Source of the DNA: a virus | Direction: 5' to 3' (one strand) | IMG/VR virus record: IMGVR_UViG_3300037882_001954 | Coordinates: 1 to 25,419 of that record | DNA length: 25,419 bases | In this document: positions 392-17,657 of the stretch, piece after piece | Numbering within the stretch: position 1 is the first letter of the stretch | Layout of the letters: the number at the start of each line of letters is the position of its first letter | Made by a program: the position numbers and the translations under genes | The notes under the pieces: generated by a model | The model's database searches: none | Told to the model about the DNA's origin: nothing | Seen by the model: only the letters and a program-made list of their open reading frames with translations

Positions 392-414
392 ACCATTGCT
401 TGTGCTCTTTGATC
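392..414 (+). promoter_or_regulatory. Copy 1 of the shared ACCA-CTTGTG-CTTTGA motif, possible promoter
   Basis: ACCA (392-395), CTTGTG (399-404) and CTTTGATC (407-414) have the same order and spacing as at 5509-5539 and 17627-17657. This copy lies 95 bases before the first gene. Here TTGATC (409-414) is also followed, 17 bases on, by TGTTAT (432-437), a passable sigma70-like pair. The other two copies have no such -10, so a host sigma70 promoter does not explain the motif. Confidence 0.5.
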
Positions 415-508
415 CACTTTCTCGCAACAATTGTTATTATTTCGCGTGCCTATGCGTCTCATTCGGCCTATCCTTTTCAGGCACGTCGCCCAAACGAGAG
501 GCTTACCG

Positions 509-979
509 ATGAATGACGAAGACCCCCCTGACCGTGGTTCGCGCAAGCCGCCATCCCAGCTATCCTTCTTGCCCTTCGACCGTGCCGACTATGGACCGCA
601 CGACGTGCCGTGCCAACTGCTGGCGGCTACCTTTAACTCGGCCGGGTTGCACTACCACGTGGAGCTCGATGTCGGGGTGAGAGTCTCTGTAGCCAAGAAG
701 CAGCTGCAGGCTCTCATGTCTGCCGGCATCTACGCTACAGTGATTGACTGCGTACCTGTTCGCTTGCCTGGAGCTTCTGCTCCTTCTCTTGGGATCAGGC
801 TGTCGAGGACTTTGACCAAGTACGTCAATGCGCATTCCTTCGCTCTACCCCCCAACGCAGTCAAAGCTCTCTTGGGAACCGAGTACGACGCACCGAGGAC
901 GCCGGGCAAACGCCTCGCGTACCGCTTCGAGGAGAGCACTCGTCGCGGCAACAACCTCAGCTATGGAGGCGTCGAATGA
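509..979 (+). CDS. Hypothetical protein, first gene of the left block
   Basis: A 156-residue protein I do not recognise. ATG 509 is chosen because GAGAGG (496-501) sits at a proper distance; upstream in-frame starts would add an implausible basic leader. The N-terminal 20 residues are charged and rich in Pro and Ser. The middle (SAGLHYHVELDVGVRVSV and the stretch after it) looks like a compact alpha/beta domain. No membrane segment or catalytic motif is visible. The stop overlaps the next start as ATGA, so translation is probably coupled. It may be an early host-takeover protein given its place, but no motif supports that. Confidence 0.75.
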   Translation: MNDEDPPDRGSRKPPSQLSFLPFDRADYGPHDVPCQLLAATFNSAGLHYHVELDVGVRVSVAKKQLQALMSAGIYATVIDCVPVRLPGASAPSLGIRLSRTLTKYVNAHSFALPPNAVKALLGTEYDAPRTPGKRLAYRFEESTRRGNNLSYGGVE

Positions 980-1389
980 GGTTCATGAGCCCCTCAGTCA
1001 AGTACGAGTTTGACGCTGCAGTAGAAGCGGCCGCGACCGCTTTTAAAGAGGCCCAAGAGCGTCAAGGCATCGAGCCGATCTGGATGCACGTCAGCGAAGC
1101 TTGGGAACGCTTCCGCAACATGACCGATATGGTGGCTGCGATTCAAGACGAAGGTGGATCAGCAGAAGGAGTTAAGAAGATGACTCGCCAATTCGTTGCA
1201 GGCCTCAGAGGCCACGGCTTGTACGTTGCCAAGAGACAGCTCTTGGGGGCTGAGCAATGCACCTCTGCCTGGGTTCGCCGAAGCTCATTCCTCAGCCACG
1301 TGCAGAAACGCAGAGAGATCTCCGGACCCGGCACCAAAGGTGGCAAGCAAGCTTTCGATTACAGCAGGATATGGGACATGAAATCGTGA
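976..1389 (+). CDS. Hypothetical protein, small and basic
   Basis: A 137-residue protein of unknown function. The first two thirds look alpha-helical (EFDAAVEAAATAFKEAQE near the N terminus); the C-terminal third is rich in Arg, Lys and Ser and could bind nucleic acid or be disordered. The start ATG overlaps the upstream stop by four bases, and the stop at 1387-1389 overlaps a GTG start of the next gene. No signal peptide, membrane helix or enzyme motif is seen. Confidence 0.7.
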   Translation: MRFMSPSVKYEFDAAVEAAATAFKEAQERQGIEPIWMHVSEAWERFRNMTDMVAAIQDEGGSAEGVKKMTRQFVAGLRGHGLYVAKRQLLGAEQCTSAWVRRSSFLSHVQKRREISGPGTKGGKQAFDYSRIWDMKS

Positions 1390-2164: not shown

Positions 2165-2337
2165 GCGACGAGGGAATAGCCTTCAACTTCGGCTTGCTTG
2201 TCGGCGCGGCTGTCAGTGCGGTGCTGATGTTTTTTGCGGCCACATCAGACTGGCGCAACGATCTTATCGGTCGTGGGCTTGCCCAATACTGCCCCGACGA
2301 TGGGGCGTTTGCTTATGTCGGGGAGTGCGGAGAATGA
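2161..2337 (+). CDS. Small membrane protein
   Basis: A 58-residue protein with one hydrophobic segment (FGLLVGAAVSAVLMFFAA, about residues 10-27), then a polar C terminus with two Cys. ATG 2161 overlaps the previous stop by four bases and its own stop overlaps the next start. Probably a single-span inner-membrane protein. Its role is unknown; an early superinfection-exclusion or host-interaction protein is possible but untested. Confidence 0.65.
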   Translation: MSDEGIAFNFGLLVGAAVSAVLMFFAATSDWRNDLIGRGLAQYCPDDGAFAYVGECGE

Positions 2338-3653: not shown

Positions 3654-3937
3654 TGGCCAAGTCTGAGTTTATCTCGAGTAGCGGTCCCGCTCGCGCCTGC
3701 TCCTCGACCTTCCTCGATGAGTTGCAGGCCAAGGCTGCCATCTGGCGAAGACGCCCGCCGTCGGGCCTCTTCGTCCTGCACCGGCTCAAGCGGTCGCGTT
3801 TCTGCTACAATCATGGGCAGGTGACCAAGTACCACTTCTGCCAGATCAGCTGCGCCCTGTCGGAGTTCAGGTGCCTGCCGGGATGCAGCCGAGCAGAGTG
3901 CGGAACAAAGCAACAAGCTCAGGGGGATCCGGCATGA
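3650..3937 (+). CDS. Hypothetical Cys-rich protein
   Basis: A 95-residue protein of unknown function starting with ATG ATG at 3650, overlapping the upstream stop. It is basic, with seven Cys. The spacing in the C-terminal half (FCYN, FCQISCAL, RCLPGCSRAEC) could form a zinc site, although it matches no zinc-finger pattern I know. The AGAGGGA at 3637-3643 is a plausible ribosome site. The stop overlaps the next ATG. Confidence 0.5.
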   Translation: MMAKSEFISSSGPARACSSTFLDELQAKAAIWRRRPPSGLFVLHRLKRSRFCYNHGQVTKYHFCQISCALSEFRCLPGCSRAECGTKQQAQGDPA

Positions 3938-4068
3938 GCTTCAAAGCACTCGAAGGCGATACGGTGCTGCTTGTGCAGAACGGAGCGCGGAAGACTGCAG
4001 ATCTCTACGAGCGCGATGGGGCTCCGTCGCGCAAGCCTTTCTTGCTCGAGAGCAAGAGTGAGCTGTAA
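3934..4068 (+). CDS. Small hypothetical protein
   Basis: A 44-residue protein beginning MSFKALEGDTVLLVQNG, with AGGGGGA at 3921-3927 as a likely ribosome site and an ATGA overlap with the gene before. The N-terminal half looks like a small beta structure and the rest is charged. It ends the first chain of overlapping genes. No family recognised. Confidence 0.5.
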   Translation: MSFKALEGDTVLLVQNGARKTADLYERDGAPSRKPFLLESKSEL

Positions 4069-4142
4069 GCCTCAAGGGCAACAAGATTCCCTGAAATATT
4101 GCGTGCTTATGCGAGACGCATGGGCGATAAAGACGGTGTGGC

Positions 4143-4223
4143 TTCGTCTCCACCGCTAGGCAAGATCTCCCGGTCTTATCCTCCCGGATCTCAATCGCTG
4201 AGGTCTTGCCTAGCGTAGACGAA
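4143..4223 (+). promoter_or_regulatory. Long imperfect hairpin in the leader of the next gene
   Basis: CGCTAGGCAAGA (4154-4165) is the exact reverse complement of TCTTGCCTAGCG (4204-4215). Outside these arms TTCGTCT (4143-4149) pairs with AGACGAA (4217-4223), giving 19 pairs with a small internal loop. The 38-base apical region can fold further (CCGG and AGAT/ATCT arms). It ends about 20 bases before the ribosome site TAAGGAGA. There is no T tract, so it is not an ordinary intrinsic terminator. A structured mRNA leader or processing site is likely. The rest of the 4069-4257 gap shows only a short ATGCG/CGCAT hairpin near 4109-4121. Confidence 0.65.
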
Positions 4224-4257
4224 ACCCGACGGCTTGCCGGCCTTAAGGAGAGATGAC

Positions 4258-4509
4258 GTGGAAGAATACTGGTACGGCTCGTACATCGGGCCTGTGGTCG
4301 AGTTGTACGGTCGATGCGCCATAGTGCGTCCCTGCAAAGAGACTTATGAATATCCCGACCAAACCCGCAAGGTAGTCGCTCAGTTCGACTTGCCTGTGCG
4401 TTATCCCGGCAATGAGGGCGAGAGCGGGCTTGCTGGCAAGCTTCTCTCTCAGGGCTGGCACTGCTTCCTCGCATGCGAATTCCAACCCGCCAAGCCGCTT
4501 CCGGTTTGA
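4258..4509 (+). CDS. Small hypothetical protein
   Basis: An 83-residue protein starting at GTG 4258, chosen because TAAGGAGA (4244-4251) is ideally spaced. An ATG at 4253 is in another frame and ends after 23 codons. The sequence MEEYWYGSYIGPVVELYGRC suggests a small beta-barrel-like domain, followed by KVVAQFDLP and a hydrophobic C-terminal part. No family recognised. It follows the long hairpin leader and precedes the ssDNA-binding-like gene by 39 bases. Confidence 0.6.
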   Translation: MEEYWYGSYIGPVVELYGRCAIVRPCKETYEYPDQTRKVVAQFDLPVRYPGNEGESGLAGKLLSQGWHCFLACEFQPAKPLPV

Positions 4510-4517
4510 CGACGTAC

Positions 4518-4529
4518 GGCTGCAAAGCC
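4518..4529 (+). promoter_or_regulatory. Small GNRA-type hairpin before ribosome site
   Basis: GGCT, GCAA, AGCC gives a four-pair stem with a GNRA tetraloop, eight bases before AAGGAG of the following gene. It is short, but it echoes the GNRA-capped intergenic hairpins found after 18700. Confidence 0.3.
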
Positions 4530-4548
4530 ACAACCAAGGAGACGCCAC

Positions 4549-5439
4549 ATGGCACCCAAGACTGAAGATAAGCAGATCGAAGCGAAAGACGCTGATCCGA
4601 AGAACCAGATCGCGATCAACCCGACCTCGACGTCGGTCGCCAACTTCAACGACGACGACTTCTTCGGCATCCAGACCGGCATGGAGGATGTCACCTCTGC
4701 TGACGTGACTCTTCCGCGTTACACCATTCTTCAGGGCCTGTCGCCGCAGGTCAACTCGCGCAAGGACGAATACGTCGAAGGCGCGAAGATGGGCATGATC
4801 TTCAACACCGCATCCGGCAAGGTCATGGACAGCCAGCGGCTGGTCTTTGCCTACTACCAACGGCGTCACATCGAGTGGACCCCCCGCGACAAGCCTTGCC
4901 CGATCGAAGGCCTTCCGAAGCCGGTTGGTGGCGGGCTGTTCAAGGACTACGGCACCGACGATTCGATCGTGGGCGAATGCAAGATCTGGGAAGAGAACAA
5001 TTCGCTCTGGACGCCTCGCGGCAACGAACTGGTGATCACCGGAACGTGGTATGTGGTCGATCCCGACACTCTGGCGACCGGATGGATTGGGATGGGCAAG
5101 ACCCAGTTCACCTCGTCCAAGAAACTGCTGGCCGGCATCCGCGACGAGAAGTACATGCACCCGACGAAGGGCATTCAACCCGCGCCGATGTTCTATCGCG
5201 TCTGGGAGATGTCGACCCGGCTTCGCGAGTTCGACGGCAACGAGTGGTTCGTCTGGCAGCACAAGCCTGCAGAGCGGATCCAGGAGCTGCCGCAAGGTCG
5301 CGCCATCCTCGACGCCTGCAAGGAGATCAGCCGGACCATTCAGGAAGGCGATATGACGGTCGACGTCACCATCGGCGAGACGGACGGCCAAGCCGGTCGC
5401 AATTCCGGCGGAAACGTCGACTCTGGCGGTCGCATGTAA
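4549..5439 (+). CDS. Conserved phage protein, probable ssDNA-binding-like
   Basis: A 296-residue protein with AAGGAGACG just upstream of ATG 4549. After an acidic, flexible N terminus come LPRYTILQGLSPQV (about residues 55-68) and MGMIFNTASGKVM, a pattern I know from a widespread phage family of unknown or ssDNA-binding-like function. The middle is rich in aromatic residues and beta strands (FAYYQRRHIEWTPRD, WYVVDPDTL). The C terminus ends in a Gly-rich, low-complexity tail, as ssDNA-binding proteins often do. The ssDNA-binding role is inferred from this tail, the family and its partner at 5675. It could also be another replication or recombination accessory protein. Confidence 0.65.
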   Translation: MAPKTEDKQIEAKDADPKNQIAINPTSTSVANFNDDDFFGIQTGMEDVTSADVTLPRYTILQGLSPQVNSRKDEYVEGAKMGMIFNTASGKVMDSQRLVFAYYQRRHIEWTPRDKPCPIEGLPKPVGGGLFKDYGTDDSIVGECKIWEENNSLWTPRGNELVITGTWYVVDPDTLATGWIGMGKTQFTSSKKLLAGIRDEKYMHPTKGIQPAPMFYRVWEMSTRLREFDGNEWFVWQHKPAERIQELPQGRAILDACKEISRTIQEGDMTVDVTIGETDGQAGRNSGGNVDSGGRM

Positions 5440-5464
5440 CTCCCTGTTCTTTATGGGAAACCAA

Positions 5465-5505
5465 GGTAGCGAGTTTTGAGTACGCTTGTACCTGAACTCG
5501 CTACC
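5465..5505 (+). promoter_or_regulatory. Perfect 11-bp hairpin after the ssDNA-binding-like gene
   Basis: GGTAGCGAGTT (5465-5475) pairs exactly with AACTCGCTACC (5495-5505). The 19-base loop holds an inner GTAC-gctt-GTAC hairpin. It begins 26 bases after the stop. No T run follows, so intrinsic termination is doubtful; protection of the mRNA 3' end or RNA processing are alternatives. Confidence 0.6.
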
Positions 5506-5507
5506 TA

Positions 5508-5539
5508 CCAACCTTGCCCAAACCTTGTGGGCTTTGACC
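5508..5539 (+). promoter_or_regulatory. Copy 2 of the shared CTTGTG-CTTTGAC motif, possible promoter
   Basis: This 31-base block matches 17626-17656 at 28 positions and has the core CTTGTG (5524-5529) followed two bases on by CTTTGAC (5532-5538), as at 392-414. It lies 136 bases before the next gene. No -10 hexamer at sigma70 spacing is seen. It begins the 5' side of the metabolic block, which fits a phage-specific promoter or operator. Confidence 0.55.
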
Positions 5540-5570
5540 TAGCATCCCGAAGAGTCCGCAGGACCTGTTA

Positions 5571-5648
5571 GCTGGCCTACCGTTCCCCAAGCCAGCACCT
5601 AGGGGTTAGACGACGGAGATAGATCCGTGACAGGCCGGAGAGACGGCC
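5571..5648 (+). promoter_or_regulatory. Structured leader with three hairpins
   Basis: GCTGGC (5571-5576) pairs with GCCAGC (5591-5596). Then come two tandem hairpins with look-alike six-base loops: ACGGA-gataga-TCCGT (5613-5628) and GGCCG-gagaga-CGGCC (5633-5648). The ribosome site AAGGAG begins 14 bases later. The twin design with GA-rich loops suggests a protein- or ligand-binding leader; this is inference. Confidence 0.45.
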
Positions 5649-5674
5649 ACCAAATTCAACCAAGGAGACGACCG

Positions 5675-6367
5675 ATGGCAGAAGATGACGCAGCTTTCTT
5701 TGATGGCGATTTGCCGCAGACCTCAGATGACCAGTCCACGACGAGCCGCGTCATCTCGACCTTCAAGGAGCTGATGGGGCTTGAAGAAGAGTACGCTCAG
5801 GTCACTGAGCTCGAATCTGGCCTCAAGTCCAAGATTGGCAAGATCAAGACGGAGACCTTCCCTGACTTGCTGCGCGAGATGGGCACCGAGATCTGGCGTG
5901 ATCCAGAGACCGGGATCACTGTGGAATTGGAGACGGCAGTCAACTCTGCTCTGCCCAAAGACCGTGAGAAGCGTAACGACACACTCAACGCTCTGCGACC
6001 GCTCGGTATCGAAGAGATCTTGGGGGAGGAATTCAACATCACCTTCATCCCGAACGATCCGCGTGCTCCCGCACTTCGTCGCTTCCTCGGCCTGCCTGAT
6101 CCGATCGTGGACGTCATTGAAGACGACGACGCTCCTGCCCCCCGGCTGACCAATGAGCAGGTCGATCTGATCGAGCGTCTCCGGGCGAGCCTGCAGCTTG
6201 GCACCATGCCTGCCGAGGAGAAGCTGGGCGTCCATGCGTCCCAGCTTGGTGCATGGCTTCGCCGGAAGATCGACGAGGGTTTCGGCTCTGCCGTCACTGA
6301 TGCAGGCATCTGGCACGGCAAGTCAGCCAAGGTCAAGAAACCCGACAGCAAGGGGAAGAAGAAATGA
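5675..6367 (+). CDS. Conserved phage protein, helical, with Lys-rich tail
   Basis: A 230-residue protein started at ATG 5675, which has AAGGAGACG directly upstream; GTG 5627 is in frame but lies within a hairpin. The N-terminal third is acidic, then helical (EEEYAQVTELESGLKSKIGK, probable coiled coil). A beta-containing middle follows (TGITVELETAVNSALPKD, EEFNITFIPND), then a helical C-terminal domain and a KVKKPDSKGKKK tail. It resembles phage proteins found next to ssDNA-binding-like genes, as here. A DNA-associated role is likely but unproven. Stop and next start overlap as ATGA. Confidence 0.65.
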   Translation: MAEDDAAFFDGDLPQTSDDQSTTSRVISTFKELMGLEEEYAQVTELESGLKSKIGKIKTETFPDLLREMGTEIWRDPETGITVELETAVNSALPKDREKRNDTLNALRPLGIEEILGEEFNITFIPNDPRAPALRRFLGLPDPIVDVIEDDDAPAPRLTNEQVDLIERLRASLQLGTMPAEEKLGVHASQLGAWLRRKIDEGFGSAVTDAGIWHGKSAKVKKPDSKGKKK

Positions 6368-6828
6368 GCGCGATCAATACCGTTAGCGCCGAAGATATTG
6401 CCGCAGTAGAAGCTCACGGCAACTTCGATAACTATCAAGATGCCGCCACCAAGTCAGCCTTCTACCCCGGACAGGGCACTGCTCTGGGACTGGCCTATTG
6501 CGCGTTGAAGCTCAACGGAGAAGCTGGAGAGCTGGCTGAGCATGTCGGCAAGGCAATGAGGGATGACGGCTTAGTCAAGATCTTGGAGCTTCCTGGCGAC
6601 GGCGAAGCTTACGAGCACAGTTACGCGATGGACCTGATTCCCGGAACTGGTCTTACGGATGACCGTCGCCTGCACCTTATCAAGGAAGTCGGCGACGTGC
6701 TATGGTATCTCTCTGCCATCTGCAACGAGCTGGGAGTCACCCTTCACGAAGCGGCCAACATCAACCTTCGTAAGCTTTACAAGCGTAGCCTTGATGGCAC
6801 GCAACGCGGATCAGGAGACGACAGATGA
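6364..6828 (+). CDS. MazG-like nucleoside triphosphate pyrophosphohydrolase
   Basis: A 154-residue all-helical protein with the MazG metal-binding pattern: NGEAGELAEHVGK gives E53xxE56, and IKEVGDVLWYLSAI gives E108xxD111. MazG enzymes hydrolyse NTPs or dNTPs to the monophosphate and pyrophosphate. About 50 residues separate the two motifs, more than in compact MazG domains, because of an insertion (about residues 66-102). It is flanked by an HD phosphohydrolase and is near ThyX, so dNTP pool control is the likely role. Its ATG overlaps the upstream stop. Confidence 0.85.
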   Translation: MSAINTVSAEDIAAVEAHGNFDNYQDAATKSAFYPGQGTALGLAYCALKLNGEAGELAEHVGKAMRDDGLVKILELPGDGEAYEHSYAMDLIPGTGLTDDRRLHLIKEVGDVLWYLSAICNELGVTLHEAANINLRKLYKRSLDGTQRGSGDDR

Positions 6829-7406
6829 CCATCGACCCAGACACCCAGCGCAACGGCGACTGGATCCAGACCTACACCGGCCGCGCCTTCCACTTCGACG
6901 ACTTCAGTTCGGCCGACATCTGCATCGAGGACATCGCTCACTCGCTGAGCATGGAGTGCCGGTACGGTGGCCATACGGCTTGGCACTACTCCGTGGCTCA
7001 ACACTCGGTGCATGTGTACGACGCGTTGCTTGGCGAGACAGGGGACCGCATGACCCTTCGCCAAGGCTTGCTGCATGACGCGCCAGAGGCCTACGCCAAG
7101 GATATCCCTCGCCCCCTCAAAGCAAGGCTCGGTGAGGGTTACAAGCATTTCGACAGCAGGATCTGGGCTGCGATCTGCGCCAAGTACAAGCTGAAGTTCG
7201 AATTGACCCCGATCATCAAGGAGATCGACTTGAGGATAGCGCTGGATGAGAAGCGCGCATTGCTCTGCAAGGGAGAGAAGGAGTGGACCGGAATCTCTTC
7301 TGCCTTCAAGCCTACCTGGATTTCAATACCAGAGTGGTCGCCTTCCCGCGCTAAGGCGGAGTTCATGAACCGCTTCCGGCAAGAGTTTGGAGTGCATGAA
7401 CTGTGA
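6825..7406 (+). CDS. HD-domain phosphohydrolase (YfbR-like 5'-nucleotidase family)
   Basis: A 193-residue protein with the YfbR-like pattern: DIAHSLSMECRYGGH, then SVAQHSVHVYDALL (H60), LLHDAPEAY (H84-D85), KDIPRPLK and a late Asp in KEIDLRIALDEKRAL (D135). Members dephosphorylate dNMPs or dNTPs using divalent metal. The S-2L enzyme DatZ, a dATP triphosphohydrolase, comes from the same broad family, but no PurZ partner is in this window. It overlaps the genes on both sides (ATGA, GTGA) and so is co-translated with MazG and the FAD enzyme. Confidence 0.85.
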   Translation: MTIDPDTQRNGDWIQTYTGRAFHFDDFSSADICIEDIAHSLSMECRYGGHTAWHYSVAQHSVHVYDALLGETGDRMTLRQGLLHDAPEAYAKDIPRPLKARLGEGYKHFDSRIWAAICAKYKLKFELTPIIKEIDLRIALDEKRALLCKGEKEWTGISSAFKPTWISIPEWSPSRAKAEFMNRFRQEFGVHEL

Positions 7407-8353
7407 GCAAACTCGTCATCTTCGGTGCCGGAATGGCAGGCCTGATTGCGGCTCGCATGCTGGCCGATCGTTCGCCGGTGATCCACGAACAGCAACCGGC
7501 TCTTCCGAACAACCACCACGCTCTGCTTCGCTTCCGGTCCAGTGCCGTCGGCGATGCGACCAACATCCCTTTCGAGCGAGTCAGCGTCGTCAAGCACGTG
7601 CTGTCTGACTCTAACAGCAACCCGATCCGCGACGCCATCATTTACTCCAAGAAGGTGACCGGAAAGATTCACGCACGCCCCATCCTAGATACAAAGCCGG
7701 TTGAGCGTTACGTTGCTCCACAGGACATGATCCAGCGGCTGGCCGTGACTGCCGACATCAAGTACGATTCCGGCTTCCTTGAGTGGTCGCACGAGATGGT
7801 CAGAGACAAGCGGCCGTCTGTCATCTCTACCATCCCCGTCAACAAGATGATGGAGCTCTTCAACTGGCCCAACAAGCCAAACTTCGTCTCGTCTCCGGGA
7901 TGGACGATCAAAGCCGGTGCCGCTCCTGCACTTGACTGCAAAGTCAACGCGACTGTGTATTCGGCGCAAGAGCACACTCTCTGGTATCGGGCTTCGATCA
8001 CAGGCGACAAGCTCACGATCGAAGGCTCCGGATCCCTGCCTGACGGTCCGGACCAAGGCCTCGTCGTGGATCAAGTCTGCGAAGCTTTCGGGCTGGACCG
8101 CGCTGATCTGAGCAGAGAGCTCCTCGCCCATCAGCAGAAGTACCAGAAGATCGCAGACCTCGGCCATGCTGACCGCGAATCAGTTAAGCGGTTCGTGATC
8201 TGGCTGTCTTCTGAGCACCGCATCTACTCGCTCGGCCGCTTCGCGACTTGGCGCCCAAAGCTGCTCCTCGACGACTTGGTCAATGACGTACGCGTCATCG
8301 CCAAGCTCATCGGGGGTGAATCCAATTACAACGCAATCATCGGCAAGGAATGA
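7403..8353 (+). CDS. FAD-dependent oxidoreductase-like protein
   Basis: A 316-residue protein with a clear N-terminal dinucleotide-binding motif, KLVIFGAGMAGLIAARML (GxGxxG at G8, G10, G13). A C-terminal IYSLGRFATWRP probably closes the flavin site, as in many FAD oxidoreductases. The middle (ERYVAPQDMIQRL, VISTIPVNKM) looks like a substrate domain. GTG 7403 overlaps the upstream stop. The substrate is unknown. It lies directly before ThyX, itself a flavoenzyme, so it could support flavin chemistry on nucleotides or act in DNA base modification. Both ideas are inference. Confidence 0.7.
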   Translation: MSKLVIFGAGMAGLIAARMLADRSPVIHEQQPALPNNHHALLRFRSSAVGDATNIPFERVSVVKHVLSDSNSNPIRDAIIYSKKVTGKIHARPILDTKPVERYVAPQDMIQRLAVTADIKYDSGFLEWSHEMVRDKRPSVISTIPVNKMMELFNWPNKPNFVSSPGWTIKAGAAPALDCKVNATVYSAQEHTLWYRASITGDKLTIEGSGSLPDGPDQGLVVDQVCEAFGLDRADLSRELLAHQQKYQKIADLGHADRESVKRFVIWLSSEHRIYSLGRFATWRPKLLLDDLVNDVRVIAKLIGGESNYNAIIGKE

Positions 8354-9162
8354 CCATGGAAGCTGCAACCCCCCGCCATCACGTTGACATCGTCGCGGCA
8401 ACGTACCGAGATCCAGTCGAAGCGGCCGCGCTTCTGATCTTCACCAAGTCAACCCGGCTGGAGATGACGTCCGGAGGCTACGAGGAAGTTCTCCACCGCT
8501 GCCAACTGGACCCGGACTGGATGATGAAGGAGCTGGACTACATGTCCAAGACCATTCGCTCCAGCTGGGAGTTCTTGGACGTTACCTTCACGATCCGGAA
8601 CATCAGCCGTGCCTGCGCCCAGCAGATCACCCGGACCCGGTTCACACCGATCGACGGCGACCTCTTCGCATCCTATGCCATGCAGTCCCAGCGAGTGACC
8701 GACATGTCTGCAATGGGCTGGCACAACCCGAACGAGCCGGGAACTGTCCTGCATGGCGAGTTCGAGGCTTGGATGAAGGAGGCTATGGACAACTACCAGA
8801 ACCTCGTCAAGGACGGTGCCAAGCTCGAAGACGCTCGTGGCGTGCTGCCGGTGAACCTCTACTGCAACCTGATCGCGAAGTACAACCTGCGCATGCTGGT
8901 CGATCTGGTTCAGAAGCGAGAGAGCTACCGGGCTCAGGGCGAGTACAACGTCATCGCTCGCGAGATGCGTGAGGCTCTGGTCGAGGTGTGGCCTTGGGCA
9001 GAGCTCTTCCTGCGGCCGAAGAACGAGCTGGCCAAGGCTGCGGTCGAGGATCTGAAGGCGTCGATCCGCGCTGGCTGCAACGAGGACAATGTCGGCCGAA
9101 CTGCCTTGCACGACATCATGATCAAGCTGGCCAAGGTCGATGATATCTTGCAGGGAGAATGA
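8350..9162 (+). CDS. thyX: Flavin-dependent thymidylate synthase family protein, divergent
   Basis: A 270-residue protein. The C-terminal ThyX signature is clear: LPVNLYCNLIAKYNLRMLV, then R190 and AQGEYNVIAREM. In the ThyX motif region (RHRxxSxNxxSxR) it reads RTR (95-97), an insertion of about nine residues, then ASYAMQSQRV. S108, S113 and R115 are kept, but His is Thr and Asn-Glu are lost. ThyX makes dTMP from dUMP with methylene-tetrahydrofolate, FAD and NADPH. The changed motif could mean altered chemistry, for example another C5 modification of dUMP. ATG 8350 overlaps the upstream stop. Confidence 0.8.
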   Translation: MTMEAATPRHHVDIVAATYRDPVEAAALLIFTKSTRLEMTSGGYEEVLHRCQLDPDWMMKELDYMSKTIRSSWEFLDVTFTIRNISRACAQQITRTRFTPIDGDLFASYAMQSQRVTDMSAMGWHNPNEPGTVLHGEFEAWMKEAMDNYQNLVKDGAKLEDARGVLPVNLYCNLIAKYNLRMLVDLVQKRESYRAQGEYNVIAREMREALVEVWPWAELFLRPKNELAKAAVEDLKASIRAGCNEDNVGRTALHDIMIKLAKVDDILQGE

Positions 9163-9163
9163 G

Positions 9164-9655: not shown

Positions 9656-10458
9656 TGGTTAACGTTGTCGTCGTTACCGGAGCTAACAGTGGCCTTGGCG
9701 CTGCTATTTGCTCCGGGCTTGATCAAACTGGGTCAAGCCTCTTGCTCAAGGTTGTCGGACCGGAGAGCGAAGTCTCTGGCCGCTGGGAGATGTCTGCCGA
9801 CCTATCTGATGAAGCCGCTTGCGCGGATGTTGCTTCTTGGGTCAAGGCTTGCACCAAAGAATTGCTGGAAGATCTGTGCTTCAAGGATGACGAGAAGATC
9901 TACCCGATCTTGATCAACTGCGCTGGCATCAACTACATCGACTGGTTCGAGAATGCCGACTTCGCCATGTTCGACAAGCTGATCGGGCTCAACGTCAAGG
10001 CTGGGCTCATGCTGGCTCAACAGCTGATCGGGAAACGCCCCCCGGCTGGTGGGCAGGAAGACGACAACTGGTTTCGCGGCCGGGGGGCAATCCTTAACAT
10101 CGTCTCCAACGCGAGCCATATGCCGATGACCAACTCGGCGTTCTATAATGCGAGCAAGGGTGCCTTTCATATCGCGACGTTGGCTCTTGCTCGCGAGTTG
10201 AGGAAGACCCACGGCATCTGCGTCTTCGGTATCAGCCCCAACAAGCTGGCAGGTACTGCAATGTCAGCCTACATTGAAGGGCAAGTTCCTTCTTTGCGCG
10301 GATGGACGCCTGAGCAGGCTGCAACCTACCAACTCGGAGCTCTTCCTTCCGGCGAAGAGACCGACCCGGCAACGTTGGCAGAGTTCATCGCCTTCCTGCT
10401 CTATGAGCCTCAGCGCCACAAGTACCTCACCAACACCATCATCCCTTACGGAGCTTGA
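9655..10458 (+). CDS. Short-chain dehydrogenase/reductase (SDR)
   Basis: A 267-residue Rossmann protein with all classical SDR signatures: VVVTGANSGLG (TGxxxGxG, residues 8-15), INCAGIN (88-93), Ser in NIVSNAS and YNASK (Y164, K168). It should be an NAD(P)H-dependent oxidoreductase. An unusual insert (about 125-143, with PPAGGQEDDNW) precedes the catalytic Ser. SDRs are uncommon in phages. Its place in a nucleotide cluster suggests a nucleotide-sugar or modified-base substrate, but the substrate cannot be read from the sequence. AAGGAG lies just upstream of ATG 9655. Confidence 0.85.
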   Translation: MVNVVVVTGANSGLGAAICSGLDQTGSSLLLKVVGPESEVSGRWEMSADLSDEAACADVASWVKACTKELLEDLCFKDDEKIYPILINCAGINYIDWFENADFAMFDKLIGLNVKAGLMLAQQLIGKRPPAGGQEDDNWFRGRGAILNIVSNASHMPMTNSAFYNASKGAFHIATLALARELRKTHGICVFGISPNKLAGTAMSAYIEGQVPSLRGWTPEQAATYQLGALPSGEETDPATLAEFIAFLLYEPQRHKYLTNTIIPYGA

Positions 10459-10460
10459 AC

Positions 10461-11012
10461 ATGTACTCTCACCTTCAGACAAAAGTCGCCGCACAATCGC
10501 CTCTCCTTGGGCTGCTGCGGATCGATCAGCTCGCCTTCCTCGCTCGGAGCGACGAGGACGAGGCTGCGATCAAGAAGCAACTTCGCCTCTCCGAAGCCAA
10601 CTGGGTCGAAGACCACGTAGTCGCCGAAGGCTACGTTCGAGGAGCTCGCAATCCCGGAGAACCTCGCGGAACCAGGAGCAGCAACACTGCCAAGCTGCTC
10701 TTCAACTACGACCTTGGGATCGAGCTCGAGATCCTGCGTTATACCGAAGGCATGAACTATGCCGACGTCGGGAGCGTCGCTTCCTGCGCACTGTGCCATG
10801 TCGGCTGCCACGTCGAGAAGGGGCAAGAGCTTCCCGGCGTCTTGAAGGATTGGACGTTCGGTTCGCCGATCATCCAGCAGGTCGAGACCCAGAGCCACAC
10901 CAACGAGTTCCTGGTCCAGACCGGTCGTAAGTACCGCTACACGATCTACGACACCAAGGGCCTGCTTGGTGTCTACTTCAAGGTCATCGAACGGCTGGAA
11001 ATTGCAGCATGA
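10461..11012 (+). CDS. Probable VOC-fold (glyoxalase/dioxygenase-like) protein
   Basis: A 183-residue protein. Two beta-alpha-beta repeats can be traced: RIDQLAFLARSDEDEAAIKK to LGIELEILRY, then CHVGCHVEKGQELP to VYFKVIERLE. This is the vicinal oxygen chelate pattern, with possible metal ligands Q23, E90, H113 or H117, and E177. VOC proteins include glyoxalases, ring-cleaving dioxygenases and resistance proteins. ATG 10461 is chosen because GGAG (10450-10453) is seven bases away; TTG 10455 overlaps the upstream stop but is too close to it. Assignment rests on pattern alone. The stop overlaps the next gene as ATGA. Confidence 0.5.
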   Translation: MYSHLQTKVAAQSPLLGLLRIDQLAFLARSDEDEAAIKKQLRLSEANWVEDHVVAEGYVRGARNPGEPRGTRSSNTAKLLFNYDLGIELEILRYTEGMNYADVGSVASCALCHVGCHVEKGQELPGVLKDWTFGSPIIQQVETQSHTNEFLVQTGRKYRYTIYDTKGLLGVYFKVIERLEIAA

Positions 11013-11188
11013 AGCTCTCTTTCGAGAAGCTTGGCTGGATTAAGTGTCGCTGGTCAGGCTTCAATTTCTCGTTCGACGAAACCATGGACGATGCTTGCGG
11101 AGAAGGCTATTCGTACTCCGACTGCTTCATTGTCGCAGGGTTCTGGGTTTATCAATTCCGCATTTGGATAAAGGAAATCGCCAAATGA
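11009..11188 (+). CDS. Small hypothetical protein (59 aa)
   Basis: A short gene with ATG 11009 overlapping the upstream stop and a stop at 11186-11188 overlapping the next ATG. The product is 59 residues, MKLSFEKLGWIKCRWSGFNF at the start, rich in aromatic residues and Cys, with a hydrophobic IVAGFWVYQF near the end. The perfect stop-start linkage on both sides supports it as real. No family recognised. Confidence 0.6.
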   Translation: MKLSFEKLGWIKCRWSGFNFSFDETMDDACGEGYSYSDCFIVAGFWVYQFRIWIKEIAK

Positions 11189-11547
11189 CCAACCACGACC
11201 GCCTTCCCTACGCGACCAACCTTCTTCACAAGATGGCAGACTTGTTCGCAGAACGCAATGCCGTGTACAAAGACAACTTCCGCATGGTCGGCAAGATCAT
11301 GTCGGCGATGTTCCCAGGGGGGTTGGAACTCAAGACGCCTGAGGACCACAACAAGTTCCACCTCTTCATGCTGGCGATCGTGAAGTTGACGCGTTACGCA
11401 ATCAACTACGAAGGCGGGCACAAGGACAGCCTTGAGGACATGATCGTCTATCTGTCTATGGTGGCTGCTCTGGACGCTGAGGCAGAGGCTCAACATCCAG
11501 AGCTTCTTCGGGACGCGGAGCTTCCCGACGCGACCAAGGCTCGCTGA
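11185..11547 (+). CDS. DUF6378-like conserved phage protein
   Basis: A 120-residue helical protein. Two family-like stretches are seen: AERNAVYKDNFRMVGKIM, and AIVKLTRYAINY followed by HKDSLEDMIVYLSM. These match the DUF6378 pattern of small phage proteins (an ERxxxYGD-like start and a D-S-x-x-D near the end), although the actual activity is unknown. The acidic residues and all-helical build recall MazG-like NTP hydrolases. ATG 11185 is used because it overlaps the stop of the 59-aa gene; the longer frame from 11044 is in shadow of that gene. Confidence 0.65.
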   Translation: MTNHDRLPYATNLLHKMADLFAERNAVYKDNFRMVGKIMSAMFPGGLELKTPEDHNKFHLFMLAIVKLTRYAINYEGGHKDSLEDMIVYLSMVAALDAEAEAQHPELLRDAELPDATKAR

Positions 11548-11560
11548 GGGGAACTGACAA

Positions 11561-12028
11561 ATGGCCAAGGAAGCTCAACAAAGCGTCGCTGCTTCGGACC
11601 CGGCCGGTGGCCCCGGCTCCTCTGCAGCCAACGAGGCTTCCTTGGCCATTTTCGCTGAGCCTGACGACCTATCTGACCAGATAGACTTCATCTCCAGTTG
11701 CCTCTTCATGGGCATCTCCCGACGCAGGAAGATTCTCTCTGCGATCTTCGCTAAGTGCGAGCGGCAAGGAGGCTGCATGATATGGCAAGGCTCTCACTCA
11801 GGAACAGGGAGAGGCGGGGGGTACGGCCGCTTCAGTTTCCAAGGTGCAACTTGCAGCGTGCACAGAACGGTCTATGCTGCAGTCTACGGACCGATCCCCC
11901 CGCGCAAGCAAGTGGACCATAGCTGCAATAATCGCTTGTGCTGCAATCCATTCCATCTGGTCGCCATGACCCACAAGCACAATCAGAAACTCAGAGACAA
12001 GAGGCGGAAGAATGCGGATAATATTTGA
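11561..12028 (+). CDS. HNH endonuclease (homing-type)
   Basis: A 155-residue protein with the phage HNH_3 pattern. GGGYGRFSFQGATCSVHRTVY leads into GPIPPRKQVDHSCNNRLCCNP and FHL, with H101, D119-H120, N129 and H132 as likely catalytic and metal residues, and C122 and C127 or C128 for structure. Such genes are often self-spreading free-standing homing endonucleases. The first 65 residues are low-complexity, Ala/Ser rich. It lies between the metabolic and replication genes, and its 3' end overlaps the exonuclease by 17 bases. GAGGGGA upstream is a fair ribosome site. Confidence 0.85.
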   Translation: MAKEAQQSVAASDPAGGPGSSAANEASLAIFAEPDDLSDQIDFISSCLFMGISRRRKILSAIFAKCERQGGCMIWQGSHSGTGRGGGYGRFSFQGATCSVHRTVYAAVYGPIPPRKQVDHSCNNRLCCNPFHLVAMTHKHNQKLRDKRRKNADNI

Positions 12029-12548
12029 CACGGAGACCACCGGTTTCGTGACCAGCATGGATTCTCCATTGAGCATCCAACCCAAGATAATCGAACTGTT
12101 CGCTCTTCGGATTAACGACGAGTTCGACATCTTGGAGGAGCTGGAAGTCTTGATAGACCCGAAAGAGAAACTCAGCGAGGAGATCATCCGGGTGACTGGC
12201 CTCAAAGACGAAGACCTTGCAGGCAAAGGAGAATTCCCCGTCCACTTCCCGAAGATCAAAGACTTCTGGCTTGGTTGCGAAGCTTCTATCGGCCACAACA
12301 TCTCTTTCGATTGCGATATGCTGGAGGTTGAATGCAAACGAATTGGGCAGGTGACAAGGTTCCCGTGGACGCCCAACCGCATTTGCACCGTAGAGGCATC
12401 TGAGCATTACTTCGGCCGCAGGCTCAAGCTCATCGATCTGCACACCTACCTGTTCGGGCAAGGCTTCGAGCAGGCTCACCGGGCTAGGAATGACGTCATG
12501 GCGACGTATCGCTGCGCCAAAGAGATGGCTAGGCGGGGGGACATTTAA
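12012..12548 (+). CDS. DnaQ-like 3'-5' exonuclease (DEDDh)
   Basis: A 178-residue protein of the proofreading epsilon type. Exo I is IIFDTETTG (D and E), Exo II is GHNISFDCDML (D), and Exo III is AHRARNDVMATY (H and D). All five catalytic residues are present. It sits directly before a DNA polymerase III alpha-like gene whose own PHP domain looks inactive, so it probably proofreads for that enzyme. ATG 12012 lies inside the end of the HNH gene. The size matches free-standing phage exonucleases. Confidence 0.9.
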   Translation: MRIIFDTETTGFVTSMDSPLSIQPKIIELFALRINDEFDILEELEVLIDPKEKLSEEIIRVTGLKDEDLAGKGEFPVHFPKIKDFWLGCEASIGHNISFDCDMLEVECKRIGQVTRFPWTPNRICTVEASEHYFGRRLKLIDLHTYLFGQGFEQAHRARNDVMATYRCAKEMARRGDI

Positions 12549-12566
12549 CTGTTGCAATCGTTGTTA

Positions 12567-12606
12567 TTCCTGGTGCTTCTGCTCTCTGGGCAGGGCATCC
12601 TCGGAA
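12567..12606 (+). promoter_or_regulatory. Intergenic hairpin element, copy P (before polymerase)
   Basis: Outer TTCC (12567-12570) pairs with GGAA (12603-12606). Lower stem GGTG (12572-12575) pairs with CATC (12596-12599). C12576 is bulged. Upper stem TTCTGC (12577-12582) pairs with GCAGGG (12590-12595, two wobbles) around a seven-base loop. The plan equals the hairpins found at 18761-21685, with a different upper stem. GAGGAGACGA of the polymerase gene follows, as in the other copies. This is the most remote copy and its upper stem is the weakest. Confidence 0.55.
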
Positions 12607-12623
12607 AATAGAGGAGACGAACC

Positions 12624-15362
12624 TTGAGAATTAGAAGCGGCTATTCATTCCGTACTGCGTACGGTTTCCTAGAAGACGTGCTGGCGAGAACTTTCTCAGA
12701 GCATGCCCCCCTGACCGACCGTGCCTCAGCTTATGGCTTCAACCGCTGGCGCAAGCTGTGCCTCAAGGCAAACAAGAAACCGATCTTCGGCGTAGAACTT
12801 GCAGTCACTGACTCGCCTAACGCAAAGAAGATGAACCTCAATTATGTGACGCTGATAGCGACCACCAGCTTAGGTCCGCTGAATGCTGCATTGGAGTTAG
12901 CTTTCAGTCAGTTTCGCTACGAGCCGATGCTAACCTATCCTCAGCTAAACAGCCTCGACTCAAGCCTCAAGGTTATCCTCGGTCGCAGGATCAATCCAGG
13001 ATTTCTTGATAGGGGCAGAGACTGGTTATACGCTCAGGGTCCGGGCCAAATCCCGGCGATGCAGCGGTGGGCGAAAGAGTTTGGCTGGAGGCCGATAGCC
13101 TGCTCAGACAACATGTATCCTGCGCCAGAGGACAAGCACGCTTATTCCATCGCTATGGGCCGCGACGCAAACACTCAGACTTGGCCGCAGCACATTCTCA
13201 CTGATGCCGAACTGTCGGTCTACGCTACGCCGGAGGCGTTCGCCAACAGGCAAGAGCTGTATGGCATGTGCACGGCAGACATGCTTCGGCCGCAACTAAT
13301 CAAGCCGAAGACTGATAAGACGGTTGAGGAGTGGTGCGACTATGCTGCGCCGTCGCTCAACGTAGACCTAACAGATCCGGTCTACGCGGCTAGGCTAGAG
13401 CGTGAGTTGGCCGTCATCAAGCAGCTTGGGTTCGGAGACTACTTCCTGATCATCGCCGACTTGATCCGTTACGCCAAGACGAAGATGTTCGTTGGCCCAG
13501 CGCGAGGATCTTCCTGCGGATCTCTGGTCTGCTACTTGATGGGCATCACCACTGTGGACCCGATCAAGCACGACCTGCTCTTCGAGAGATTCTTGGATCC
13601 CGGCCGCACCGACTTGCCGGACATCGACATCGACTTCAGTCACCAGAACCGAGATCTAGTCTTCACGTACCTCTCTGACCGTTACGGCCGCGATCACGTT
13701 GCCCGGCTTGGGACCGTCTCCTTCACTCGAGAACGTCAGTTAGCTAAGGAGCTGTCAGCTGCACTGAAGATACCGCAGTTCAAGTTCGAGTCAGTGGTGG
13801 CCAACGTAGAGAAGACGGAAGGCAACACCACGCTGGCCATGGCCATGAAGAACACCCAAGATGGCACTCGCCTGATGAGAGAGCACCCGGAGCTGGCTAT
13901 CATCGATAGGCTCGAAGGCCACCCAAGGCACCACTCCACTCACGCGGCCGGTGTGGTTGTGACCGACTTGCCCATCCACGAGTACGTGGCGGTCGATGCC
14001 AGATCCAACACTGCCGAAGTCGACAAGAAGGATGCTGAGGATCTCGGTCTGCTAAAGATCGACGCTCTTGGTCTGAAGCAGCTGTCCGTGTTTGAGGATT
14101 GCTTGCTGCTGATAGGCAAGCCTTTCGAATGGCTGCAGAACTTGCCGCTGGACGACAAGGGTGCTTTCGGGACCCTCAACAAGAAGCTCTTCTCTGGCGT
14201 GTTCCAATACAACGGCCGCTCAGTGCAGCAGGTCTCTGCAGCCTTCGAGATCGAAGAGTTCGAGGACATGGTCGCGACAACTGCTCTGGGCCGTCCCGGA
14301 CCGCTAGGAGCCGGGGGGACAGACAAGTGGATCGCAGTACGCAAGGGAATCACCCCCCTGCGCATAGAGCACCCAGCTTTTGAACCTATCCTTGGTCGAA
14401 CCAAAGGCATCGTGCTCTATCAAGAGCAGGTCATGCAGGCAGGCAGAGAGATTGGCGGCATGGACTGGGCAAGAGTGACCAAGCTCCGTAAGGCTGTGCA
14501 GTACTTTGGTGGCGCGAAGGGCATGGAAGAGTTCCGGGATGAGTTCATGGCCGGAGCTAAACAGAGAGATATCCCTGCAGACGTGGCTACGCGCTTCTGG
14601 GACGATCTGCTGACCTACGGTTCCTACGCCTTCAACCGCTCTCATGCCGTGGCCTACTCGATGATCTCGTACTGGTGCTGCTATCTCAAGGCTCATCATC
14701 CGCTGGAGTATGCAGCTGCGCTGCTCAACCATGAGGATGAGCCGGCACGTCAGCGTCTCCAGCTCAGAGAGCTAGAGGATGAAGGCGTGAGCTACATTCC
14801 AGTAGACCCTGAGACTTCAGGCCTCAAGTGGCAGGTTACCAAGAAGGGTTTGGTCGGTCCGATAAGTCTGGTGAAAGGTCTCGGCGGTCGCACTGCTCAG
14901 GATTACGTCCTAGCCAGAGACCGTGGAGGAGATCTGCCGAAGCGTGCAGTCAACCTTTTGAAGGATCCGAAGACCCCGCTTGACAACCTGAGGCCTATAG
15001 CTCAGTCGATTGCGCAGAACCATCCGGACTTGACCGAGATCAACATCTTTTCTAAGCCGTTGGCTGTCGACAAACTCGGAGACCGGCCGGAGAGAGACTT
15101 GCTGCTATTCCTGAGGCTAGTCAAAGCTCAACCGCGCAAGGACGACAAGAGCGGCGGAACCAAAATGACAGCTCTCATGGAAGACGACACTGGCCAGATC
15201 AAGGTGTTCTTCAATAACGACAAGTACCAGAAGTTTGGTAAAGACATGCTCGATCGAGGCAGGCCAGGAACTACACTCTGGGCTGTCAAAGGATCTCAGC
15301 CAGACGGTGGCGGCATCATATTCTGCGACATGGTCAGGTCGCTGGGAGAGTTCCGGCAATGA
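12624..15362 (+). CDS. dnaE: DNA polymerase III alpha subunit-like (family C), short form
   Basis: A 912-residue family C replicative polymerase, shorter than the roughly 1160 residues of E. coli DnaE. The N-terminal PHP domain reads RIRSGYSFRTAYG where active PHP domains have an HxH-type site, so it is degenerate. The palm has GPARGSSCGSLVCYLMGI and DLPDIDIDF, with D335 and D337 as catalytic Asp, and KIDALGLK supplies the third, about D480. HHSTHAAGVVVT follows the finger region. A C-terminal OB-like part starts near KMTALMEDDTGQIKVFF. TTG 12624 is the start, with GAGGAGACGA at proper distance. The 3' end overlaps the primase gene. Confidence 0.93.
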   Translation: MRIRSGYSFRTAYGFLEDVLARTFSEHAPLTDRASAYGFNRWRKLCLKANKKPIFGVELAVTDSPNAKKMNLNYVTLIATTSLGPLNAALELAFSQFRYEPMLTYPQLNSLDSSLKVILGRRINPGFLDRGRDWLYAQGPGQIPAMQRWAKEFGWRPIACSDNMYPAPEDKHAYSIAMGRDANTQTWPQHILTDAELSVYATPEAFANRQELYGMCTADMLRPQLIKPKTDKTVEEWCDYAAPSLNVDLTDPVYAARLERELAVIKQLGFGDYFLIIADLIRYAKTKMFVGPARGSSCGSLVCYLMGITTVDPIKHDLLFERFLDPGRTDLPDIDIDFSHQNRDLVFTYLSDRYGRDHVARLGTVSFTRERQLAKELSAALKIPQFKFESVVANVEKTEGNTTLAMAMKNTQDGTRLMREHPELAIIDRLEGHPRHHSTHAAGVVVTDLPIHEYVAVDARSNTAEVDKKDAEDLGLLKIDALGLKQLSVFEDCLLLIGKPFEWLQNLPLDDKGAFGTLNKKLFSGVFQYNGRSVQQVSAAFEIEEFEDMVATTALGRPGPLGAGGTDKWIAVRKGITPLRIEHPAFEPILGRTKGIVLYQEQVMQAGREIGGMDWARVTKLRKAVQYFGGAKGMEEFRDEFMAGAKQRDIPADVATRFWDDLLTYGSYAFNRSHAVAYSMISYWCCYLKAHHPLEYAAALLNHEDEPARQRLQLRELEDEGVSYIPVDPETSGLKWQVTKKGLVGPISLVKGLGGRTAQDYVLARDRGGDLPKRAVNLLKDPKTPLDNLRPIAQSIAQNHPDLTEINIFSKPLAVDKLGDRPERDLLLFLRLVKAQPRKDDKSGGTKMTALMEDDTGQIKVFFNNDKYQKFGKDMLDRGRPGTTLWAVKGSQPDGGGIIFCDMVRSLGEFRQ

Positions 15363-17557
15363 TATCTCCAATCGAGACTTCCGCTGCAGCTGTCAGGTAT
15401 CTTGAGCGCATAGGCGCTAAGATGCGGACCCTCTTCACCGCCTCGATAACCACCCAGAGCCTAGGCTACGAGAAGGACGTGTACAGCGTCAGGTTCAGGC
15501 GCGACGGCTCAGTAAGAGCTCCTGACCATCTCCTCCCAACGGCCGCTGAGTCTGAGGGCATCGCAGCTGACATCAAGGCAATGAAGTTCCCTGCTCAAGT
15601 TACGGTGGCTGCGCTTAGCAACTCAAACTTGCCTGAGCTGATCCTCAATGCCCCTGAAGACAAGCTCTTCGTATTCCGCAAGCCAAGCAACGGTCCGATC
15701 AGGTTCATCCAAGTCCGCATCGAGCTGGAGAACGGAGACAAGAGATATGTTCCGCAGACGCTGTGGGATGACGGAGAGTGGCGGGCTATAGAGCCGGAAG
15801 AAGGCTTGCCTATCTACGGCATCGACAAGGTTCGCAAAGGAGACAGGGTCTTCCTGCATGAAGGAGCTAAAGCTTGCAAGGCGGCTGAAACCGTAGCTCG
15901 CGATACTTCGCATCCGTTCAGTGAGTTCTTCAAGACTGGAGTGCATGTAGGTTGGATCGGCGGTGCGCATCACCTGCACCGCACGCTGTGGCACGAGCTG
16001 CAGAGCCTCCAGCCGGGGGAAGTCGTCATATTTCCGGATAACGATTTCGTCGGCCGGAGCAAGATCAACGACATTTCGGCCAAGTTCGAATGCCCGGTCT
16101 CGTACGTTCGCATGGACGCTCAATGGCCCAAGTCTTGGGATGTAGCAGACCCGATCCCCGATCGCATGTTCTCCCAAGAGAGCGAGACCGAAGTAGGCGG
16201 TAGGTATATCGGCGAGCTGATTGAGGATATGCTGGTCTCCTGCGATTGGGCTACGACTGAAGTTGCGCAGACAGAGAACGGCAGGCCGATATACGAAGTG
16301 CGCGAAGTGTTCGCCCACAACTGGATCCGCATCCAGAACCTGCAGCACTACGCTCACATCTCTAATCCTGAAGTGTCATTCAACCGAGACCAGTTCAACA
16401 TCGCAGTCAGGCCATTCTCCGACGTGCCTGACACTGCAGCCTTGTTCTCCAAGTTCGCGGGTCACATCTGCGACAAAGTCACATTCATGCCGTCTCTGCC
16501 TACGGGCATCGTTCGGCTGGATAGCGAGTACTGCTTAAACCAATACGTCGATCGGAGGCTCAAGCCGGTCAAGAGCAACAGCGTGCGGGAACAAACTAAG
16601 CCGTTCTGGGATTTCATGGAATACATGATCCCTAACCCAGAAGAGCGGCAAGTGGTCATGTCTTGGATAGCGACGTTGTATGCCAAGCCAGAACGTCGGA
16701 TGGCCTTCGGGTTGCTGTTCCTGTCGAAGCTGCAAGGCGTAGGCAAGAGTACTCTGCTCAACATGATAGCAGAGTTGGTCGGCCGCAAGCACGCTTCCTT
16801 CCCGGGAGACGCAATGATCCAAGGAGACTTCAACGGCTGGCTGGTCAACAAGCGTCTGGTGGTCGTGCACGAGATCTATGCAGGCCAGAGCTGGAAGACT
16901 TACAACCGGCTGAAAACCTTGATCACCGACGAGTTCGTGGAGGCCAACAACAAGCACGTGGTCAACTACACTCTACCAAACTGGACTCACTTCTGCGCAG
17001 CGTCGAACTCTATGGAGGCTCTCCGGATCGAGTCAGACGACCGGCGCTGGTACGTGCCTGCCTTGCCGGAGAAGCTCTACGGCAGGTACGGCGAACTACG
17101 CCAGTGGACCAGAGGCGGGGGGATGAGATATCTTGCCTCTGAACTACTGGAATGGGATGGGTATCTTTTGGAGGGAGATCAAGCCCCTCGAACGCTCTCC
17201 AAGTCCAACCTGATCGACCAGTCGATGCCGAACGACGAGCGCATGATCTTGGTCATGATGGAGAGGATGGATGCCGACGTCTGCGTGGACATCAAAGAGC
17301 TCTGGCTCTGGCTCCAGAAGGAAGCTAACAACCGGGCTTTCGTCAGCCCTCAGAGGATCTGCACTCTACTCAACGAGCATGGGTACGCGGTAGATCCGGC
17401 GCGGCCGTTGGGCTCTCGGCTCCGTCAAGTCGTGTGGAGGAGCATCGAAGCGAGAGCCAAGGCCCTCAAGAACCTCACGAACGATGATGAAGTGAAAGAG
17501 ATCGTGAACCGGATGAGAAGCCCATCCGAAGTATTCAGATCTTCCTCCGACATGTAA
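15359..17557 (+). CDS. TOPRIM primase - SF3-like helicase fusion
   Basis: A 732-residue protein. A DnaG-type TOPRIM domain lies around 160-265: FLHEGAKACKAAE (E168), VVIFPDNDF (D227, D229) and SWDVADP. A helicase domain of the phage SF3/DUF5906 type follows: LQGVGKSTLLN (Walker A, K463), RLVVVHEIY (Walker B, E505) and a THFCAASN sensor (about 543-550). A helical C-terminal segment (620-732) may bind DNA. It should unwind DNA and prime synthesis at the fork for the polymerase encoded upstream. ATG 15359 overlaps the polymerase stop by four bases. No N-terminal zinc-binding domain is evident. Confidence 0.88.
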   Translation: MISPIETSAAAVRYLERIGAKMRTLFTASITTQSLGYEKDVYSVRFRRDGSVRAPDHLLPTAAESEGIAADIKAMKFPAQVTVAALSNSNLPELILNAPEDKLFVFRKPSNGPIRFIQVRIELENGDKRYVPQTLWDDGEWRAIEPEEGLPIYGIDKVRKGDRVFLHEGAKACKAAETVARDTSHPFSEFFKTGVHVGWIGGAHHLHRTLWHELQSLQPGEVVIFPDNDFVGRSKINDISAKFECPVSYVRMDAQWPKSWDVADPIPDRMFSQESETEVGGRYIGELIEDMLVSCDWATTEVAQTENGRPIYEVREVFAHNWIRIQNLQHYAHISNPEVSFNRDQFNIAVRPFSDVPDTAALFSKFAGHICDKVTFMPSLPTGIVRLDSEYCLNQYVDRRLKPVKSNSVREQTKPFWDFMEYMIPNPEERQVVMSWIATLYAKPERRMAFGLLFLSKLQGVGKSTLLNMIAELVGRKHASFPGDAMIQGDFNGWLVNKRLVVVHEIYAGQSWKTYNRLKTLITDEFVEANNKHVVNYTLPNWTHFCAASNSMEALRIESDDRRWYVPALPEKLYGRYGELRQWTRGGGMRYLASELLEWDGYLLEGDQAPRTLSKSNLIDQSMPNDERMILVMMERMDADVCVDIKELWLWLQKEANNRAFVSPQRICTLLNEHGYAVDPARPLGSRLRQVVWRSIEARAKALKNLTNDDEVKEIVNRMRSPSEVFRSSSDM

Positions 17558-17625
17558 GTCCATGTTATTAAGGTGAAACCACTCTACGAACTTTAGACTA
17601 CAAGGGTGAGCTAAACCTATGTTGA

Positions 17626-17657
17626 CCAACCTTGACCAAATCTTGTGGCCTTTGACG
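17626..17657 (+). promoter_or_regulatory. Copy 3 of the shared CTTGTG-CTTTGAC motif, possible promoter
   Basis: CTTGTG (17642-17647) and CTTTGACG (17650-17657) recur as at 399-414 and 5524-5539, and 28 of 31 bases agree with 5508-5538. GTT and GAAACCA sequences further upstream are also shared with the 5440-5510 region, so the two regions may descend from one duplicated control block. No sigma70 -10 is seen at correct spacing. Confidence 0.55.

Follow-up and report, generated by a model that had tools for sequence, protein, structure and literature searches.

Among the closest described systems, the promoter early stem-loops (PeSLs) of T4-type phages are mobile regulatory cassettes (Arbiol 2010 and Comeau 2014, cited in PMC4503421), and the extended start-associated sequences (ESAS) of Cluster K mycobacteriophages are 17-bp inverted repeats that occur in many copies per genome beside translation starts (PMC3203893). 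The element analyzed here, termed M, is a non-coding repeat of about 108 bp. PeSLs and M are alike in that a conserved non-coding junction sequence is tied to promoter function and to the shuffling of neighboring genes; M differs, however, in its two copies per genome, its fixed junctions, the unrelated phages that carry it, and its varying orientation, and also in that no stem-loop is common to its copies and a promoter role is proposed at one junction only. Hence, if a PeSL-type cassette is taken as a promoter plus a stem-loop in many mobile copies, M does not belong to that class. Like ESAS, M is a clade-specific conserved intergenic repeat of unassigned function, with a variable middle and the same neighboring genes across relatives (PMC3203893), whereas its 108-bp length, its lack of inverted-repeat symmetry, and its occurrence in two copies set it apart. 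A sigma70-type bacterial promoter offers a third comparison, because at one of the two junctions (B) M presents aligned −35 and −10 hexamers 16–17 bases apart in three phages; nevertheless, only the −35 lies within the repeat, the conserved stretch is far longer than such a promoter, and the copies at the other junction (A) have no −10.

The DNA studied, referred to below as the window, is 25,419 bases long; it is an IMG/VR record and comes from a phage that encodes a DnaE-type polymerase, a primase, a helicase, and proteins of nucleotide metabolism. Relatives were collected by polymerase and primase searches and comprise G001 (22.6 kb), G002, G003, G004, G005 (48 kb), G006 (46.6 kb), L130, and the fragment L074; of the four records later screened for polymerase and sigma-factor genes, G005 and G006 approach genome length and the window and G001 are partial, and the polymerase of G005 is 80% identical to that of the window. 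Junction A lies between a Pam3 gp34-like gene (end 5439) and a gp33-like gene (start 5675), and junction B lies between the primase gene (15359–17557) and the next operon (ATG 17927), so that together they bracket the replication block 5675–17557. Five phages bear M, namely, the window, G001, G002, G005, and L130.

A first-pass annotation of the window had proposed a phage promoter motif, MCCANNNCTTGTGNNCTTTGAY, in three copies. All three matches are present on the plus strand with zero mismatches (Table 1), the first exactly where it had been placed and the other two each one base away; no further site was found in the window at up to three mismatches, and reading of the sequence confirmed that all point in the same direction and lie 95 to 270 bases ahead of an ATG (509, 5675, and 17927). 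Shuffled sequence contained the motif 0.20 times on average and never three times (n = 100 shuffles), an expectation that concerns a pattern composed after the three copies were known. The second and third copies are identical at 28 of 31 bases, as had been claimed, and are paired by blastn over 32 bases (90.6%, E = 6e-7). The first copy, taken alone, stands at chance level: it agrees with 18 of the 28 columns common to the other two, while shuffled sequence attains a mean best of 17.5 and reaches at least 18 in 132 of 300 shuffles, and its best-segment score of 12 was equaled in 103 of 500 shuffles. The three-copy set is therefore reduced to one real pair and one chance-level match; copies 2 and 3 are a true repeat pair, and a three-member set goes beyond the evidence. 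Upstream of copy 1, a stretch resembling the left block of M (TCCATGTTAT plus AATCAC) stands one base off the spacing seen in M, and an equally good left-block match at that spacing arose in 12 of 5000 shuffles; on the left block alone, many window sites outscore this stretch, and no such forward copy was found in the G005 region that matches the copy 1 area. These traces are a weak hint of a possible decayed third copy. Exact matches to the motif across IMG/VR numbered 22, one per stretch, in DNA of varied composition where inspection by eye showed no M nearby, and were dismissed as chance.

Table 1. Coordinates of the motif matches, of M, and of the adjoining features (window positions unless a relative is named).
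Feature	Position	Strand	Basis and remarks
Motif copy 1	392–413	+	Not above chance alone; possibly part of a decayed third M (about 308–416), whose right end it would be
Motif copy 2	5517–5538	+	Junction A; forms the right end of M, with no −10 after it
Motif copy 3	17635–17656	+	Junction B; forms the right end of M
M, junction A	5434–5541	+	Seven-copy alignment, profile match; counterparts in G005 (4358–4465) and, shortened, in G001
M, junction B	17552–17659	+	Seven-copy alignment, profile match; overlaps the primase stop codon
M, junction B, forward counterparts	G005 16794–16901; L130 1760–1867		
M, junction B, inverted counterparts	G001 1695–1802; G002 6458–6351		
Sigma70-like pair, junction B	17643–17670	+	−35 TTGTGG (17643–17648), 16 bases, −10 AATAAT (17665–17670)
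Second conserved block, TGAAATAGTTAGTGCC	17682–17697	+	Possible extended −10 (AATAGT at 17685) or leader RNA start; 25 bases from the M edge
Candidate leader RNA of the operon behind B	17693–17926	+	Covariation in five phages; gene start ATG 17927
Leader RNA counterparts	G005 16936–17122; G001 1650–1453 (−); G002 6496–6671; L130 1912–2119		
Leader element N, junction A	5539–5674	+	Read from gap comparison; also in G005 (4205–4360), G001, and G006

Comparison of the intergenic gaps revealed that copies 2 and 3 form the right end of the longer repeat M, whose seven copies align over 108 columns with zero gaps. The profile is conserved in its left 30 and right 25–30 columns, and the middle is variable in sequence at a fixed length. 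Copies at orthologous junctions are 61–76% identical, inverted copies included, against 31–38% for the fourfold-degenerate sites of the polymerase gene between these phages, which is near saturation; an identity so far above that of near-saturated sites calls for constraint or exchange and not for recent descent alone. A protein-coding role was considered, as five of the seven copies share an open reverse frame, and was rejected for want of codon periodicity, conservation being 0.72, 0.70, and 0.72 at the three codon positions. An RNA structure was rejected as well, given that RNAalifold returned zero pairs over the seven copies and that the folding of most copies does not exceed that of shuffled sequence; single copies do fold well, the junction-A copy of the window strongly so (z = −5.4). 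M has no Rfam match at gathering score, and just chance-level matches occur around it; its overall dyad symmetry is not above that of permuted columns, and a search for intrinsic terminators at both junctions gave none. M is, in short, a DNA-level element.

These results also weigh on the proposal that M works as a leader RNA element, for example, an ops-like site, or one of antitermination, on which a NusG-like protein of the phage would act. Proteins of this kind, with NGN and KOW domains and a PHROG assignment as transcription antiterminator, are encoded in G005 (42731–43276, minus strand), where the gene adjoins the terminase genes, and in G004 (3831–4025, minus strand). The G005 gene and the strong fold of the window's junction-A copy would suit such a site; however, the copies have no base pair in common, two phages carry their junction-B copy inverted, and G004 has its NusG-like protein yet lacks M, all of which makes an RNA element very unlikely. 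As a reader of M, the NusG-like protein was rejected since it does not track the element.

The distribution of M is narrow. It stands at both junctions in the window, in G005, and in G001, whose junction-A copy is shortened at its left end, and it is seen only at junction B in L130 and G002 because those contigs do not reach A. In G006, the flanking genes are there at both junctions and M at neither; in all four phages in which both junctions are visible, M is thus present at both or at neither. A profile search of G005 found M at these two junctions and nowhere else, and a model built from the window and G005 copies only recovered those of G001 and G002 and matched L130, a contig fetched for its primase, with E = 1e-15. 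M was not found in G004 or in more distant polymerase-bearing contigs, homologues sought in phage records gave none, the left-end pattern yielded two unrelated chance matches only in other IMG/VR contigs, and the exact left-end pattern was absent from 85k bacterial and archaeal genomes.

Within this group, the placement of M varies. At junction B, it is inverted relative to the genes in G001 and G002. At junction A, it precedes the leader element N in the window and follows it in G005 and G001, where M abuts the ribosome-binding site directly, and G006 carries N without M. N forms hairpins around CCGCAGGACC and GGCCGGAGAGACGGCC, and its alignment is too divergent, and partly mis-registered, for a covariation test. 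M thus occurs pointing either way, and both before and after a leader element. The empty G006 sites, the two orientations, and a CTAACTA direct repeat that flanks the shortened G001 copy are features that a small non-autonomous mobile element, landed at both junctions by chance, could also leave behind; however, part of that repeat belongs to M itself, the same two junctions are occupied every time and never others, and M is conserved over saturated divergence with no matches beyond this phage group, so that a mobile origin is quite improbable.

The same variation bears on another alternative, in which M would be a DNA site of replication or recombination (an accessory origin, a primase or helicase binding site, or a module-exchange boundary) and the promoter hexamers at B would be incidental. 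M occurs at both ends of the replication block, its orientation and order vary, the position of MazG-type genes relative to the same junction differs among G005, the window, and G006, and the oppositely oriented copies of G001 are more alike in their middles (34 of 44 positions) than are the junction-B orthologues of G001 and G002 (29 of 44). Against this, G006 carries the same replication genes and no M, the aligned −35 and −10 at B would have to be coincidence, and a more origin-like AT-rich repeat region exists at window 1–508 and in G005; a replication or recombination site is consequently possible but rather unlikely. The AT-rich region is a large gap with direct and inverted repeats in both genomes, comprising a CCATACRACTTTTTGC pair in the window and a 57-bp duplication with ATCTCCTGCTCTTT iterons in G005 (44300–44915), and its sequence resembles that of an origin or control region. 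The MazG-type gene directly follows M in G005 (4476–4847), comes after the gp33-like gene in the window (6364–6828), and lies elsewhere in G006 (43559–44017); the G005 and window proteins have no blast match to each other, and both match Pfam MazG.

With regard to promoter function, the first-pass annotation had stated that no consistent sigma70 −10 accompanies the motif, which is correct for copy 2 and incorrect for copy 3, where a −10 follows. In the window, the −35 at junction B lies inside the motif (CTTGTG) and the −10 just outside M, and the same aligned place reads TTGACC-17-AATAGT in G005 and TTGAAG-17-TATTAT in L130. When the three forward B copies were scored with a sigma70 matrix for the best aligned −35/−10 pair, that pair fell at M column 92–93 in all three; its mean score was reached in 0 of 400 independent shuffles and in 3 of 600 under a null that keeps relatedness (3-column block permutation of the aligned copies), for a pair that was tested after being seen. 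The window's own pair scores 6.4, short of the 8.6 that marks the 95th percentile among coding windows. A sigma70-type arrangement with 16–18-base spacing kept in relatives is found at junction B, though the window's own example is weak. At junction A, the copies lack a −10, and their best aligned mean score, 4.25, is at the level of shuffles; the inverted junction-B copies do not offer a good −35. An AT-rich block at the −10 location is also present in G001 and G006, and AATAGTNNGTGCC, some 20 bases past the −10, is kept in G005, L130, G001, G002, and the M-less G006. From AATAGT to the M edge there are 25, 26, 36, 29, and 29 bases in the window, G005, L130, G001, and G002, respectively, and this distance sets M just upstream of the promoter zone in either orientation. 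A transcription role at the third copy is plausible, and the sigma70-like pair points to the host-type RNA polymerase and not to a phage-specific one, as a good lead and not as proof.

The reading of the motif by a phage-specific RNA polymerase or sigma factor, as first proposed, finds no such support. A conserved sequence does precede operons; however, no such enzyme was found. A PHROGs survey of the large G005 proteins gave no RNA polymerase or sigma factor, PF04542 detected no encoded sigma factor in four records (two of them partial) with its control positive in 10 genomes, and PF00940, for single-subunit RNA polymerases, matched nothing in the window, G001, G005, and G006 (two of them partial), with a control that likewise matched nowhere. 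Moreover, the junction-A copies of G005 and G001 reach straight to the ribosome-binding site, and copy 1 is at chance level. Since two relatives carry M inverted at junction B and a third, with the same genes, lacks it, the motif does not act as a uniform signal for promoters, and a dedicated phage promoter is very unlikely; the M-less G006 likewise indicates that M is not required for the operon behind B.

Between the sigma70-like pair and that operon, comparison of five phages predicts a structured leader RNA in which 92.5% of cells are paired and 17 of 38 pairs are changed on both sides, with a covariation score of 0.358 compared with 0.155 ± 0.027 in shuffled alignments; in slid controls, the score never exceeded 0.134. 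It has no Rfam family at gathering score, and a scan with its pattern returned clade members and two unrelated contigs only; the junction-B leader is a candidate for a new cis-regulatory RNA. By eye, its 5′ GUGCCUUC could pair with the loop GAAGGCAC as a pseudoknot, a pairing without covariation support. Separately, window positions 18819–19349 encode a small protein in which Cys, His, and Asp positions are conserved and which by eye resembles a papain-type protease, with no Pfam match and an assignment to PHROG 3754 (unknown). It is present in all five M-bearing phages and not in G006; as a trans-factor it was rejected, for it tracks M but nothing suggests DNA binding.

The best explanation, with a probability of roughly 0.4, is that M is a clade-specific non-coding DNA cassette at module borders that would act as an exchangeable upstream control cassette. 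M would, at junction B, abut a −10 region that exists outside it, and in the forward copies its right end, the motif, would supply the −35 for the host-type sigma70 RNA polymerase, with the leader RNA and then the operon following downstream of this putative promoter. The conserved stretch far exceeds a −35, which makes a bound regulator probable, and the rest of M at B is where a putative activator or repressor would bind. At junction A, where M has no −10, it is more likely a protein-binding site or a shared sequence for recombination, and it may thereby enable the exchange of modules; the swapped order of M and N at A and the shifting position of the MazG-type gene support the exchange reading. 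Weighing against the cassette are the ordinary score of 6.4 in the window, the weak −35 of the inverted copies, the absence of M from G006, the testing of the −35/−10 pair after it had been seen, and the small number of phages. A bolder extension is unlikely, in which the two copies in each genome would evolve in concert, and in which insertion, flipping, and reshuffling would rewire the promoter of the next operon; M, indifferent to orientation and bracketing the replication module, would then be a small mobile promoter-module system outside the T4-like phages.

The earlier reading of a three-copy phage promoter is thus corrected to one repeat pair within a longer element. If the control-cassette reading is true, a compact non-coding cassette would travel with the replication module of these phages and flip yet stay beside a promoter, and it would provide a concrete, testable case of phage modules bringing their own control sequences.
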